This document shows positions 32,344 to 39,102 of a stretch of DNA of 64,000 nucleotides, in pieces. The position numbers and the translations under genes are program-made. Positions within the stretch are counted from its first letter, which is position 1. Each line of letters begins with the position of its first letter. The notes under the pieces are model-generated. The model ran no database searches, was not told the DNA's origin, and saw nothing but the letters and a program-made list of their open reading frames with translations. The stretch spans positions 1 through 64,000 of the forward strand of contig CADBAY010000004.1 in NCBI GenBank assembly GCA_902792815.1, in the 5' to 3' direction. The DNA comes from an uncultured Bacteroidia bacterium (GTDB lineage Bacteria; Bacteroidota; Bacteroidia; Bacteroidales; UBA932).

Positions 32344-33111
32344 TTATCTCAATTGTGATATTAATGGGTAGTCTGCACGGCTGAGCCGCAGCCAGTTGCG
32401 CAGTCCGTTGAGCGAATTGAGCAGGTAGAAGGAGTATTTGATGATGTAGATGAGGGCGTAGGATGAGCCGGGGTCGCCCTTGAGTGTTACGGCCCACATG
32501 GTTATCGAAAAAACGTTCACTCCTATCCAGAATATCCATTGCTCCATATAGGCGGTACTCATGAGCAGCTGCCCGATGATGTTGCATATCAGTGGCAGTA
32601 CGTCCAGCACCACGGCGGTCTTGATGAATGTGTCAGCAGCCGATTTGTCGAAACGGGCGATAATGAAGTAGGCCACTACCGATCCGGCGAGGAACAGCAG
32701 GGCGGCGAGCCATCGCTGCTTGCCGTTAAGCCTTCGGGCCTTTACGCTCCCCTCGGCGGTGTTGCCTCGGTGGCGCCATTGGAAGAATCCTACGAACTGC
32801 ATTGGTACGAAGTATAAGAAATGCAGTACGGCATTGCCCAGGCCGGAGCTTCCGTTCTTCCAGTTAATCAGGCACATGGCCCCGTAGATACTCACGTCTA
32901 TTAGTCCGAAGAGGAATGTGATTATCTTTCCGCTGGCCGATGCCACCGTGGCGGCTACTCCCATCAGCGAGCCGAAGGCGGCAAATATCAGCAGCCATCT
33001 TGCCTCTGTATCGGCGGGGACGAACTTAAGCGCCGTGGCCAGGATTGTCACCACGGTCATACCCACCATGATGAAAACGGAGAAATACTTGTTGAAGGTC
33101 TTGTTATCCAC
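32344..33111 (-). CDS. pnuC: PnuC-type nicotinamide riboside/mononucleotide transporter
   Basis: Inner-membrane facilitator of NAD precursor uptake, about 255 residues with seven hydrophobic helices. PnuC traits: ASASGKIITFLFGLIDVSIY, NWKNGSSGLGNAVLHFLYFV with MQFVGFFQW, and the C-terminal SSYALIYIIKYSFYLLNSL. The frame is open to 33234, but the upstream part is the translated 51-nt repeat, not protein. A GTG at 33111 directly follows a -7 element (33123-33116), implying a leaderless or near-leaderless message; an ATG at 33069 is the alternative. Confidence 0.85.
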   Translation of the reverse strand: MDNKTFNKYFSVFIMVGMTVVTILATALKFVPADTEARWLLIFAAFGSLMGVAATVASASGKIITFLFGLIDVSIYGAMCLINWKNGSSGLGNAVLHFLYFVPMQFVGFFQWRHRGNTAEGSVKARRLNGKQRWLAALLFLAGSVVAYFIIARFDKSAADTFIKTAVVLDVLPLICNIIGQLLMSTAYMEQWIFWIGVNVFSITMWAVTLKGDPGSSYALIYIIKYSFYLLNSLNGLRNWLRLSRADYPLISQLR

Positions 33112-33115
33112 CTTG

Positions 33116-33123
33116 CAAAGATA
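33116..33123 (-). promoter_or_regulatory. -7 element (TATCTTTG) of pnuC
   Basis: Exact TAnnTTTG match on the minus strand, 5 bases from the proposed GTG start and 16 bases from the first 51-nt repeat unit. Confidence 0.5.
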
Positions 33124-33138
33124 ATGTTTTTTCCGAAG

Positions 33139-33224
33139 TCCCGTGTGCAAAACGGCCCTTTCTGCCCCCGGGACCGGCCTGCAGCGGCCTCCCGTGTGCA
33201 AAACGGCCCTTCCTGCCCCCGGGG
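33139..33224. repeat. 51-nt-period repeat array, upstream part (2 units)
   Basis: Two copies of a 35-nt core (33139-33173 and 33190-33224) with period exactly 51. The core begins TCCCGTGTGCAAAACGG, continues through CTTTCTGCCCCCGGG, and can fold by CCGT/ACGG and by outer TCCCG/CGGGA pairing. Same orientation and period as five copies downstream of the transposase-like gene. Confidence 0.85.
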
Positions 33225-33280
33225 ATTCTTGCAACTCTGAGGAATAATCGCCATATTTGCTTCAACTAAATAAATGAATT

Positions 33281-34210
33281 ATGAAAAACTTATCTTTTTA
33301 CGATCAAGAGGCGTATTGTCAAAATTTGTTTGACCGGAAAGGCCCATTCTGGCACATAGCCACGCCAGGTGATTCCACATCCATCTTGTTTACTAATCCG
33401 GACGATTACCGATTTGGAATGTCCCTTTTTGCTGTCTGCGCGTGGGAATGCAACCTTAAGGTTTATGCCTTCCAGATAATGAGCAATCATCTTCATAATA
33501 TTGCCGGAGCAAGTGAGGAGCAATGCTGTTACGATTTCTTGGAGTCATATTCGCACCGTCTGATGAGATATGCCTCAAATAAAGGATATGAACTTGACTT
33601 GTCGACTTTTGTTGCCTCGCCCATAGAAATAGACTCGCTACAGTCGTTGCGCAATAATATCGTTTATACTCACCGAAACGCTTATGTAATAGATGCCTCA
33701 CAGACTCCTTTTTCTTGTCCGTGGGGGAGTGGCCCGTTGTATTTCGGATGCGATATTAACGAATTCGCCTCGCGTAAGTTTAACGATTTGCCATACAGGG
33801 AGAAGCGTATGATTCTCAACGGGCGGGTGAAAGATCTTCCGGACACTTTTGTGGTCAGGAATTCATGTATCGCTCCGGAAAGCATATGCGACTGGCGCAC
33901 GGGGCGGAGCTTTTTCCGGGACGCTCATCAGTATTTCAATTTGCTCGGAAGAAACTTTGAGGCATATGCTGAGTTCGCGTCGCTATTAAAGGATAAGTCG
34001 TTCATGACAGATGCTGAGATGTATTCGGCGGCGTGTGTTGTGGCTAAGCAGCAGTATAATATCTCCGTTCCATCGTTGCTTCCATCTGAGGCGAAGTTGG
34101 AGATGGCGAGGAAACTTCATTTCGATTATCGGGCGGGTAACAATCAGATTCGCCGTATTCTTAAGATTGATATCGATACGGTCAACGCCATGTTCCCCTC
34201 GGCCCGATAA
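33281..34210 (+). CDS. RAYT-like Y1 (IS200/HUH) transposase
   Basis: 309-residue member of the IS200-like HUH transposase group, most like the REP-associated tyrosine transposases. The metal-binding HUH motif is H70-L-H72 in QIMSNHLHNIAG and the nucleophile is Tyr129 in NNIVYTHRNAYV. A C-terminal helical region (about 255-305, with NNQIRRILKIDIDTVNAMFP) looks like a helix-turn-helix. RAYTs act on REP hairpins, and this gene is bracketed by seven copies of a GC-rich 51-nt-period repeat, which are its likely substrate. The gene itself is AT-richer than those repeats. Start ATG at 33281. Confidence 0.75.
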   Translation: MKNLSFYDQEAYCQNLFDRKGPFWHIATPGDSTSILFTNPDDYRFGMSLFAVCAWECNLKVYAFQIMSNHLHNIAGASEEQCCYDFLESYSHRLMRYASNKGYELDLSTFVASPIEIDSLQSLRNNIVYTHRNAYVIDASQTPFSCPWGSGPLYFGCDINEFASRKFNDLPYREKRMILNGRVKDLPDTFVVRNSCIAPESICDWRTGRSFFRDAHQYFNLLGRNFEAYAEFASLLKDKSFMTDAEMYSAACVVAKQQYNISVPSLLPSEAKLEMARKLHFDYRAGNNQIRRILKIDIDTVNAMFPSAR

Positions 34211-34223
34211 TCTTTGTCTCCCA

Positions 34224-34309
34224 TCTCGTGTGTAATTCGGCCGTCTCTGCCCCCGGGACCAGACCGTCGCGGCTCCCCGTGTGCAAATCGGGCCTTCCTG
34301 CCCCCGGGA
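34224..34309. repeat. 51-nt-period repeat array, proximal downstream part (2 units)
   Basis: Cores at 34224-34258 (diverged: TCTCGTGTGTAATTCGG) and 34275-34309, period 51, starting 13 bases after the transposase-like stop codon. Confidence 0.8.
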
Positions 34310-34501
34310 GCGGTTCACGGGCGCTTTGCCGGCAGACTGCCAGCAGCGGGCGGGACTCCATTCGCTGCGCTCACTCCGGCCCCTCCCAACGTCTACTGCG
34401 TCCGCGCTGCGCGCGAACTTGTATCCGTCGGGCCCCTCCCCCTGCCCGTGTCCGTGGGTGGACACGCCCGCCCGCCGCCGCATCCCGCCGGCTCCTGCCC
34501 T
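34310..34501. repeat. GC-rich block between repeat groups, with two GGGAGGGGCC boxes
   Basis: Very GC-rich, non-coding in any convincing frame. On the minus strand it contains GGGAGGGGCC at 34378-34387 and 34431-34440, each followed by GCGCAGCG- or GATACAAG-like text that resembles the palindromic elements in tilS (18697-18805) and after the ClC gene (42187-42298). It may be an insertion into the 51-nt array. Confidence 0.5.
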
Positions 34502-34654
34502 CCCCGTGTGCAAAACGGCCCTTCCTGCCCCCGGGACCTGCCAGCTACTGCCTCCCGTGTGCAAAACAGCCTTCTCTGCCCCCGGGACCAGCCCGTCGCA
34601 GCCTCCCGTGTGCAAAACGGCCCTTTCTGCCCCCTGGACCGGCCCGCCGCAGCC
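34502..34654. repeat. 51-nt-period repeat array, distal part (3 units)
   Basis: Cores at 34502-34536, 34553-34587 and 34604-34638, period 51, each followed by a 16-nt spacer of the form CCnGCC...GCnGCC. Both cores and spacers are similar between units, unlike CRISPR. On the minus strand each unit would encode 17 residues because 51 is a multiple of three. Confidence 0.85.
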
Positions 34655-34680
34655 ACAAACACGTCTCCCGCCGACTTTAT

Positions 34681-34711
34681 TTTGGTAATTCGGGAATTAT
34701 TACTATCTTTG
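34681..34711 (+). promoter_or_regulatory. Promoter of rimP-nusA-infB
   Basis: A -33 TTTG (34681-34684) and an exact -7 TATCTTTG (34704-34711), 19 bases apart, the spacing expected for the Bacteroidota primary sigma factor. Transcription would begin near 34716-34720, upstream of an intrinsic terminator. Confidence 0.7.
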
Positions 34712-34727
34712 TGCCCGTGTTGAAGAG

Positions 34728-34754
34728 ATAGAGGCCGAAGGGCTTCTATTTTTT
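34728..34754 (+). terminator. Leader terminator (attenuator) before rimP-nusA-infB
   Basis: Nine-pair stem ATAGAGGCC (34728-34736) with GGCTTCTAT (34741-34749, one G-U), GAAG loop, then six T residues ending at 34754. It lies between the promoter and the rimP start at 34770, so part of the transcription would stop here. NusA stimulates such terminators, so autoregulation is plausible. Confidence 0.75.
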
Positions 34755-34769
34755 GTTATAAAAAGCCGT

Positions 34770-35042
34770 ATGCAAAGAGAAGAATTTGACAAGGTAGTGC
34801 TTAAGGCTGCGCAAGAGCGCGGCTGCAGCGTGGTGGCCGTCGACTTTAACGACGACGACAACATTTTTGAGGTAACTCTCGACAAAGATTCCGCCCCGGT
34901 GGATCTCCAGGACTGCGAGTATGTGCACAGGGCAGTGCTCGCCGCCTTCGACCGCAACATCGAAGATTACGCACTCACCGTGGGCTCTCTTGGCATAGGG
35001 GCTGAAGAAGCAGATGAAATATTGAAAACGATACAAGAATAA
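34770..35042 (+). CDS. rimP: RimP-like ribosome maturation factor, N-terminal domain only
   Basis: 90-residue protein in the conserved rimP-nusA-infB position. It fits the N-terminal domain of RimP (30S maturation): RGCSVVAVDFNDDDNIFEVTLD, then DCEYVHRAVLAAFDRNIEDYALTVGSLG, where normal proteins continue as VxSPGLxRPL. Typical RimP is about 150 residues with a C-terminal SH3-like domain that binds S12; that domain is absent and the stop overlaps the nusA ATG (TAATG), so this is a compact gene and not a simple frameshift. Identification rests partly on context. Confidence 0.7.
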   Translation: MQREEFDKVVLKAAQERGCSVVAVDFNDDDNIFEVTLDKDSAPVDLQDCEYVHRAVLAAFDRNIEDYALTVGSLGIGAEEADEILKTIQE

Positions 35043-36310: not shown

Positions 36311-39102
36311 TGGCAGAAATCAGAATAAACAAACTTTTAAAGCAGTTCAACATCGGTTTGTCCGACCTCGTTGAGTTCCTTCATAAGAAGGGCTTCGAGG
36401 TGGAAGAGAATCCGAATGCCAAGGTGTCGGACGAGTGTCTGCCCGACCTCCATAAGCAGTTCGGTAAAGATAAAGAAGCCTTGGAGCAAGCCCAGCAGGT
36501 GGATATCAAGGTTAAGGAAATCCTGGAAAAGACCAACCGCCGCATCTCCCGTCAGGAAGAAGAGGAGGAAGAGCAGGAACTTACCATCAAGTCCACCACT
36601 TTCGAGCGCAAGGCAAAGCCCGCTCCTGCACCGGAGCCCGAGCCCGAGCCCGTAAAGCCGGAGCCCGAACCGGAGCCGGTTAAACCCGAGCCGGAGCCGG
36701 AACCTGAGCCGGTAAAACCCGCCCCGGAGCCCGAGCCCGTGAAGGTGGAACCTGAGCCCGAGCCTGTAAAGCCTGAGCCCGAACCGGAGCCCGTAAAGCC
36801 CGAGCCTGTGAAGGTTGAACCCGAACCCGAGCCTGAGCCGGTGAAGCCGGAGCCTGCACCGGAACCCGAGCCCGTGAAGGCGGAACCCGCCAAGCCGGAA
36901 CCCGTCAATCCCGAGGCCAAGAAGGATGGCGATGCCGCATCGCCTTTCAAGGTGGTCGGCAAGGTTGACCTCAGCCAGTTCGACCGCAAGCCCGCCAAGC
37001 GCGAGCGCATCGGCAAGGGCGCCCAGAAAGTGGACGTCGCCAAGGCCGGAGCCAATATCGACCGCAACGCCGGCAAGAAAGACAAGCCCAAGAATGCTCC
37101 CGCCCAGCCCGCTCCGGGCCAGGGCAAGCGCAAGCGTGACCGCGACCGCGACCGTCTCAAGCCCGCCCTCACCGAGGCCCAGCAGGAAGAGATGCAAAAG
37201 GAGATTCAGAAGCAGGTCAAGGAGACTTACGCCCGTATGAACGAGGGCAAGAAGAATAACTTCGGAGCTAAATACCGTAAGGAGAAGCGTGAGGCCGCTG
37301 CGGCCCGCAGCCAGGAAGAGCAGATGGAACTTGCCGCCGAGCAGAAGGTGCTCAAAGTCACCGAGTTCGTAACGGTAAACGACCTTGCCACCCTTATGAA
37401 CAATACTCCTGTGGTTAAGGTTATCGGCGCCTGCATGAGCCTTGGCCTGATGGTGTCCATCAACCAGAGGCTCGATGCCGAGACGCTGGTGCTGGTGGCC
37501 GAGGAGTTCGGCTACAAGGTGGAGTTCGTGACTGCCGGACTTACCGACGAAATCAATTCCAACGAGCAGCCCGACCGTCCCGAGGACCTCAAGCCGCGCG
37601 AGCCTATCATTACCGTCATGGGTCACGTTGACCACGGTAAGACTTCGCTCCTCGACTACATCCGCAAGACCAATGTCATTGCCGGTGAGGCCGGCGGTAT
37701 CACCCAGCACATCGGTGCTTACAGCGTCAAGCTGGAAGACGGCCGCAAGATCACCTTCCTGGATACTCCGGGTCACGAGGCGTTTACCGCCATGCGTGCC
37801 CGTGGCGCCCAGATGACCGACCTTGCCATCATCATAGTGGCCGCCGACGACGCGGTGATGCCCCAGACCGTTGAGGCTATCAACCACGCCCAGGCTGCCA
37901 ACGTGCCTATGGTGTTTGCTATCAACAAGATAGATAAGCCCGGCGCGGATCCCGAGAAGATTCGCCGCCAGCTCTCCGAGATGAACATTCTGGTGGAAGA
38001 CTGGGGCGGTAAGTACCAGTGCCAGGAAATCTCCGCCAAGAAGGGTATCAACGTCGATAAGCTTCTCGAGAAGGTGCTCCTCGAGACCGACCTTCTGGAG
38101 CTTAAGGCCAATCCCAACAAGCTTGCAAGCGGTGCAGTCATCGAGTCGAGTCTCGACAAGGGCCGCGGCTACCTGGCCACCGTGCTGGTCCAGGACGGAA
38201 CCCTGCATCAGGGTGACGTAGTGCTGTGCGGAAGCTTCTACGGCCGCATCAAGAGCATGTTCAACGAGCGCGGACAGAAGGTGCAGGAGGCTGGTCCTTC
38301 TACGCCGGTGTCGGTGCTCGGCCTTAACGGCGCTCCCGCAGCAGGCGAGAAGTTCAATGTGATGACCGACGAGAGGGAGGCCAAGAATATAGCGGCCAAG
38401 CGCGAGCAGCTCATACGTATCCAGGGCATCAAGACCCAGAAGCATATGACTCTCGAAGAGATCGGCCGTCGTATCGCTATCGGCAACTTCAAGGAACTCA
38501 ATGTCATCGTCAAGGGTGACGTGGACGGCTCCGTTGAGGCCCTGTCCGACTCTCTCATCAAGCTCAGCACCGAGGAAGTGCGCGTAAATGTCATCCACAA
38601 GGCTGTGGGCGCCATTTCCGAGTCCGACGTGCTACTTGCCGAGGCCTCCGACGCCGTTATCATCGGCTTCCAGGTGCGTCCTTCCGTTGAGGCACGCAAG
38701 AGCGCCGACCGCGAGGGCATCGAAATCCGTCTCTACTCAGTTATTTACGACTGTATCAACGACGTCAAGGACGGTATCGAGGGTATGCTCGAGCCGGAGA
38801 AGAAGGAAGAGGTCATCTCTACCGCCGAGGTCAAGCAGACCTTCAGGATTTCCAAGGTCGGTACCATCGCCGGATGTATTGTCCGCGACGGCAAGATGAT
38901 ACAGAAGTCCAAAGTGCGCCTTATCCGCGACGGTATAGTCATCTACACCGGCGAGCTTGGCTCACTCCAGATCGGCAAAGATTCCGTCAAGGAAGTCCTG
39001 GCCGGCAAGGAGTGCGGTATGAGCATCGCAGGCTACAACGACATCAAGGAGGGAGATATGATAGAAGCCTTCCAGATCGTGGAAATCAAGCGTACGCTAT
39101 AG
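36310..39102 (+). CDS. infB: Translation initiation factor IF-2
   Basis: 930-residue GTPase that places initiator tRNA on the 30S subunit. IF2_N-like start ([23 protein letters not shown]), then a long linker (about residues 95-200) of Pro-Glu-Pro-Val-Lys repeats and a basic Arg/Asp/Lys stretch (about 275-290). The G domain has G1 [13 protein letters not shown]3 DTPGHEAF and G4 NKID (NKIDKPGAD). Domains II-IV follow. The proline-glutamate linker is longer and more regular than usual but of a kind common in Bacteroidota. Transcription ends at the hairpin at 39121. Confidence 0.97.

Follow-up and report, generated by a model that had tools for sequence, protein, structure and literature searches.

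RAYT-like genes of Bacteroidales and unlike hairpin arrays with a common spacing of about 51 nt

Introduction

The REP-RAYT systems (TnpA-REP, class 2), as far as parts of the text of Quentin et al. (2018; PMC6006769) describe them, combine an enzyme carrying HUH and Tyr motifs with hairpins that lie beside its gene and elsewhere in the genome, the repeat family being specific to the enzyme and its stems retaining conserved mismatches. All of these features recur at the locus described here, which lies in a 64,000-nt stretch of DNA from an uncultured Bacteroidia bacterium (the whole stretch analysed, hereafter the window). Compared with the same parts of that paper, neither a GT[AG]G foot nor a W motif is present here, YxxRN replaces YIxxNP, and single hairpins are arranged in one-direction arrays with a spacing of 51 nt that extends across unlike repeat families. 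In these parts of the source, TnpA-Y1 subclass 2.6 corresponds to the RAYT group 5 of Bertels et al. (2017) and resembles the present system in belonging to Bacteroidetes and in having "atypical secondary structures" that flank the genes, with copies elsewhere in the genome. However, its Tyr motif is given there as YIH[QN]NP and its median HUH-to-Tyr distance as 82 residues, and here the Tyr motif is a different one and the distance is 58–59. The words "tandem" and "array" are absent from the main text of that paper (PMC6006769). Ordered tandem REP/REPIN arrays, some of them beside RAYT genes, have been described in Pseudomonas fluorescens SBW25 (Bertels and Rainey, 2011; PMC3116915); their units are 72 and 112 bp long, and the parts of that paper drawn on here do not describe a spacing across unlike families.

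The TnpA proteins of IS200/IS605 share the HUH/Y1 motifs with the protein studied here. IS200/IS605 elements carry hairpins at their ends. The profile similarity to their TnpA is weak (E 0.02), however, and the arrays reported here far outnumber the gene copies. In the literature surveyed, mostly papers available without subscription, no report was found of a spacing common to different repeat families, and to our knowledge it is still unsettled how REP sequences multiply.

Results and Discussion

The RAYT-like gene and its protein

The gene occupies positions 33281-34210 on the plus strand of the window and encodes a RAYT-like HUH/Y1-type protein of 309 aa that is akin, along its entire length, to other RAYT-like proteins of the genomes compared. 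Both motifs named in a preliminary description of this DNA, H70-L-H72 and Tyr129, are carried by this ORF. N69, H70, H72 and Y129 are invariant in all 34 aligned relatives, as are R132 and N133, the motif in the window being YTHRNA. HxH and YxxRN are present in 99/99 rows of the in-group, the clade of close relatives defined below (96 and 99 by regular expression, the remaining three showing HLH), and the distance from HUH to Tyr is 58 or 59 residues in 81 of the 93 in-group rows measured. The window's protein has no W between HUH and Tyr and thus does not carry the W[QE] core motif of REP-RAYT; some W is found there in 16 of the 93 in-group rows having both regular-expression motifs. Its YTHRNA also departs from YI-x-x-NP, the Tyr motif listed among the class 2 motifs in part of PMC6006769.

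No match of the protein to Y1_Tnp (PF01797) was reported up to E 10, and NCBIfam and PHROGs gave no match. Among the relatives, Y1_Tnp is weakly matched by 14 of the 34 in-group proteins (E up to 0.1, best 1.7e-4) and by seven of 12 control proteins, which are distant RAYT-like proteins, and NCBIfam REP_Tyr_transpos is weakly matched by 11 of the 34 (best E 0.0046). Profiles of in-group and control proteins can be aligned from end to end (281 columns, 28% identity). At this gene, the closest relative with a name is the Bacteroidales MAG RGIG9677 from yak omasum, with 99% protein identity. Since the W motif and YIxxNP are absent and GT[AG]G stands at the hairpin foot in only 6 of the 55 array units with a clear hairpin, near the rough chance of one in ten, we call the protein RAYT-like, without assignment to a named subclass. 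The preliminary description had called the locus a REP-RAYT unit, which holds for a RAYT-related protein with its own dispersed hairpin family and fails for two classical features, a W motif in the protein and GT[AG]G at the hairpin foot.

A weak profile match (E 0.02) connects the window's protein with the transposase structures 2xm3, 2xma and 2xo6, which we take to be ISDra2 TnpA. Together with the HUH/Tyr motifs and the hairpins on both sides of the gene, this match would suit an ordinary transposon of the IS200/IS605 type next to which its end hairpins have multiplied. Such an origin appears quite improbable, given that seven arrays stand against a single such gene copy in the genome, where the next most similar copy is 33% identical, that plasmid or phage homologues are absent at E 1e-5, and that the Y1_Tnp profile gave no match.

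The repeat array around the gene

Seven copies of a 35-nt imperfect hairpin core surround the gene, all in a single orientation and starting at 33139, 33190, 34224, 34275, 34502, 34553 and 34604. The upstream array (33139..33224, plus strand) consists of two hairpins (33139-33173 and 33190-33224) 51 nt apart. Downstream, a first part (34224..34309, plus strand) comprises the hairpins 34224-34258 and 34275-34309, again 51 nt apart, and a second part (34502..34654, plus strand) comprises 34502-34536, 34553-34587 and 34604-34638 with their linkers at the same spacing. These positions, the copy number and the orientation agree with what had been described before, whereas the claim that all adjacent downstream pairs lie 51 nt apart does not hold: the five downstream copies are grouped as 2 + 3 and parted by a 192-nt insert (34310..34501, no strand assigned), so that 34275 and 34502 are 227 nt apart.

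A stretch of ~190 nt like this insert is present within arrays at three sites of the window's genome (G000) and at one of a second genome (G193), with hairpin-to-hairpin gaps of 220-228 nt (227, 228, 220 and 227 nt). It lies at 34310-34501 in the window and, marked by a shared 32-mer, near 4344-4375 in L031, 4688-4719 in L032 and 5348-5379 in L210, and is perhaps a second repeat landing in arrays.

Other features of the surroundings were also recorded. Between pnuC (NMN_transporter) and the upstream array, which the preliminary description had placed on the pnuC promoter, TATCTTTG is found on the minus strand at window 33108-33139, and we take it to resemble the Bacteroidota -7 element. Proline-glutamate-rich tandem repeats at window 36631-36908 belong to the N-terminal part of an IF-2 gene. 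A search of 33000-34800 for known RNA families returned one sub-threshold match only, which was taken as chance.

Dispersed copies and cosegregation with the enzyme

In G000 (2.37 Mb, 48 contigs), the core pattern with up to three mismatches has 36 matches at seven sites, each an array, and the reversed-pattern control has 0; six of the seven arrays are distant from the gene. All are unidirectional, and nearly every unit follows its neighbour at 51 nt. Across 12 arrays in the two genomes, 57 spacings between neighbours were counted, of which 55 are exactly 51 nt and the other two 50 and 52; the count omits six longer gaps (two over the gene and four over an insert). The core copies are likely to be mostly intergenic. 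Six arrays lie between long ORFs and are overlapped by ORFs of 143-407 aa, which may be chance ORFs; in L036, a 406-aa ORF runs through the array and has weak Pfam matches beyond it.

The core is present in two of 300 same-genus genomes, both encoding a protein 99-100% identical to that of the window. Matches to the protein at E up to 1e-60 occur in 65 of the 300, the next after the 99-100% pair being 64% identical, and the core is absent from the 63 further genomes, which have relatives at 64% or less. The expectations that the core would occur in tens of copies and would cosegregate with the transposase gene are thus borne out, the latter by two positive genomes only, and neither a core confined to this locus nor one widespread in genomes lacking the transposase family was found.

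Hairpin and linker sequences

The hairpin parts CGTGTGCAAA and CTGCCCCCG are nearly invariant over the 74 units of the two genomes, and the stem contains two T.C mismatches, conserved in 66 and 68 of the 74 units. In E. coli REP, it is reported in part of PMC3733652 that cleavage is lost once the unpaired bases at the loop edge are made to pair. Compensatory changes in the hairpin family of the window were too few to count. Hairpins are 85-87% identical and linkers 64-69%, only linkers leading to another unit being counted. Identity within an array and between arrays is 0.872 and 0.851 for hairpins and 0.692 and 0.639 for linkers, and neighbouring units are slightly more alike (hairpins 0.891, linkers 0.723). 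Because units of one array are barely more alike than units of different arrays, the arrays are not simply recent local duplications. A CRISPR array was ruled out, as the linkers share a consensus at the above identity and are not unique spacers.

Turnover of units between two genomes

The gene in G193 (L126) has 97.2% nucleotide identity to that of the window, and the upstream array there has the same outer junctions and four units. Arrays differ by whole units between the two genomes: the five orthologous arrays have, in G193 and G000, respectively, 11 and 7 units (around the gene), 2 and 12, 8 and 4, 5 and 3, and 3 and 4. A clean empty site was sought in G193 and none was found, the site of the seventh array (L031) falling on contig ends and the place that matches the nine-unit array L033 of G000 lacking its family and holding a 52-nt array of another family instead. 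That 52-nt repeat has 6 matches at 3 places in G193, including L236 (G193:C52:98501-98639) and G193:C79:78889-78975, and 0 in G000.

Paralogs with their own repeat families

Counting the protein itself, G000 contains nine matches to it, down to E 0.0025. The two nearest paralogs (33% and 32% identity) are located between arrays on both sides, which have another sequence and again a 51-nt period. The repeat family of one has 18 matches in G000, all around its own gene, and that of the other (C25 gene) has 22, comprising 17 around the gene and 5 distributed over four further sites. In G000, every enzyme that was examined is adjoined by a repeat family of its own, differing between enzymes. Near the 33%-identical paralog, tandem repeats with a period of 25 nt (75 nt) form another array at L038 222-477.

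The distant RAYT-like paralogs of G000 (L040, L043 and L044) have, on either side, copies of their own hairpin sequences that are near-identical or inverted and arranged in other layouts. At L040, one side has a hairpin pair 52 nt apart, and the spacing may therefore not be exclusive to the in-group.

A spacing shared across the enzyme clade

The first collection, drawn from 149 genomes of the family, comprised 34 in-group genes with E below 1e-40, and as a control served 21 distant RAYT-like genes, which are the best 21 of 43 other matches and include six near copies of each other. A lag of 51 was detected in 26 of 68 in-group flanks versus 0 of 42 control flanks. In a second collection of 80 loci, lag 51 was found in 30, lag 52 in five and the best unrelated lag in three. 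Dropping 15 loci on contigs already used left 99 in-group loci, some still near copies (e.g., L150/L153/L155, and G103b with L195). Any tandem signal was seen in 72 of their 198 flanks, the top lag being 50, 51, 52 or 102 in 61 of the 72; control flanks gave a signal in 6 of 42, with none of the six at these lags. In a quick tree of the 99 in-group and 21 control proteins, the in-group falls on one side of a branch with an SH-aLRT support of 97.

Hairpins were searched as stems within 350 nt of the genes, and their distances were taken from centre to centre. The 99 in-group loci yielded 122 adjacent pairs, of which 74 have a distance of 50-52 nt (47 exactly 51), compared with 0 of 10 at the 21 control loci, where six of the ten are at 36-38. 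Even where tandem sequence similarity is lacking, at 23 in-group loci, the distance is 50-52 nt for 9 of 24 pairs, against a mean of 0.05 such pairs in 20 runs of single-base shuffles of their flanks; their far flanks hold one pair, at 64. When recounted from the true stop codon, 68 of 116 pairs are at 50-52 nt, and among these 68 the hairpins are 27-38 nt long and the gaps between their feet 13-24 nt. At the 73 loci having a hairpin, the median distance from the stop codon to the first is 33 nt.

With the spacing rule set as a lag of 51, 52, 102 or 153 or hairpins 50-52 nt apart, 73 of 99 in-group loci and 0 of 21 control loci show the spacing. At the set thresholds 26 in-group loci do not, of which six pass with a looser hairpin score (far flanks 0 of 1 pair, control 0 of 14); relaxing the score further brings in another three loci, but also gives 1 of 13 in the far flanks. 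The spacing is common to about 29 array families that remain unclustered at 62% identity. These come from 30 clusters, one of which is spurious: the lag-51 signal near G103b, L195 and L200 resembles an alanine-rich coding repeat and was rejected as an array. At G067a, the upstream and downstream arrays are not in the same orientation. In a thin sample of 394 other genomes of the phylum no protein match was found at E 1e-20, and 5 of the 20 genomes listed without a match belong to the same order.

At four control RAYT-like loci (L115, L119, L122 and L124), two unlike hairpins 36-38 nt apart lie beside the gene. Given pairs at this distance in the control, different spacings may be characteristic of other clades.

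Arrays with a 52-nt period occur in the same clade (G027a with ~12 copies and L140 with ~8), and 51 is therefore not an absolute value. They also speak against the earlier proposal that a period of 51, as a multiple of three, keeps a reading frame open through units that insert into genes. The array had been described as open on the minus strand, and open frames do exist, on both strands; 53 units have a mean of 4.19 open frames out of 6, exceeding single-base shuffles (3.26) and hairpin-keeping shuffles (3.42). Dinucleotide shuffles, however, give an equal number (4.15 +/- 0.12), i.e., the frames are as open as the dinucleotide composition makes them, and we regard selection of the period for open units as very improbable indeed.

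It could also be proposed that the arrays grow by replication slippage or unequal recombination and that the 51-nt period is a functionless legacy of a single ancestral hairpin pair. Tandem repeats do vary by whole units, as between G000 and G193, adjoining units are a little more alike, and the in-group enzymes share one ancestor, so a single ancestral spacing is possible. Nevertheless, the excess similarity within arrays is slight, linkers of 64-69% identity should have drifted in length if unconstrained, yet 55 of 57 spacings are exactly 51 nt, and the spacing is common to the ~29 unclustered families as well as to hairpin pairs without tandem similarity (9/24). On this evidence, inheritance of a passive period is unlikely.

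Proposed origin of the spacing

The unit length is common to unlike sequences while the linkers vary, which suggests that the system sets or keeps the length, and the occurrence of the same spacing at the unlike hairpins beside these gut-bacterial enzymes points to the enzyme itself as what may set it. We consider it somewhat more likely than not that the locus belongs to a RAYT-type system of a Bacteroidales clade, in which an HUH/Y1-type protein together with its own hairpin family sets or keeps a spacing of 51 (+/-1) nt; binding, nicking and transposition by the protein are what we infer from its kinship.

Because it is the contour length that stays constant, and not the gap separating one hairpin foot from the next, a ruler could also work on duplex DNA. 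In one such scheme, the arrays would be under selection for a host or regulatory function, offering even sites on duplex DNA to the protein or to a nucleoid protein, e.g., for autoregulation. Constant contour length combined with variable gaps between feet (13-24 nt) and variable hairpin lengths (27-38 nt) is what a duplex ruler leads one to expect, and the arrays start close to the gene. However, six of the seven arrays in G000 are far from the gene, unit numbers change fast, and pairs one helical turn off are not enriched (three at 40-41 nt and 0 at 61-62 nt, versus 44 at 51), leaving helical phasing alone unsupported. A regulatory role of this kind seems about as unlikely as the passive inheritance of the period, if not slightly more so.

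Regarding the RAYT-type system, a more specific proposal, to which we would give somewhat less than an even chance, is that the clade possesses a ruler: whatever hairpin is recognised, only units of 51 (+/-1) nt would be cut and joined, resulting in one-direction arrays of unit length in the genome, and sequence specificity would be able to change freely from member to member with the ruler preserved. From its homology, the protein is expected to cleave single strands at hairpins and to join them. TnpA of IS200/IS605 acts as a dimer. In the simplest model, the enzyme, probably a dimer likewise, would hold two neighbouring hairpins and nick both at the same relative place, which would free one unit, i.e., a hairpin and its linker, as a 51-nt single strand. 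The freed unit would then be joined beside another hairpin, the ruler being the distance between the two held hairpins, and arrays could grow or shrink in 51-nt steps and seed new sites.

The ~29 unlike array families provide natural replicates of one geometry, in which spacing and sequence are separately alterable. If the protein sets the spacing, the system would represent a naturally occurring means of building DNA arrays with even spacing, and the paralogs would represent matched enzyme-repeat pairs of different specificities inside one genome.
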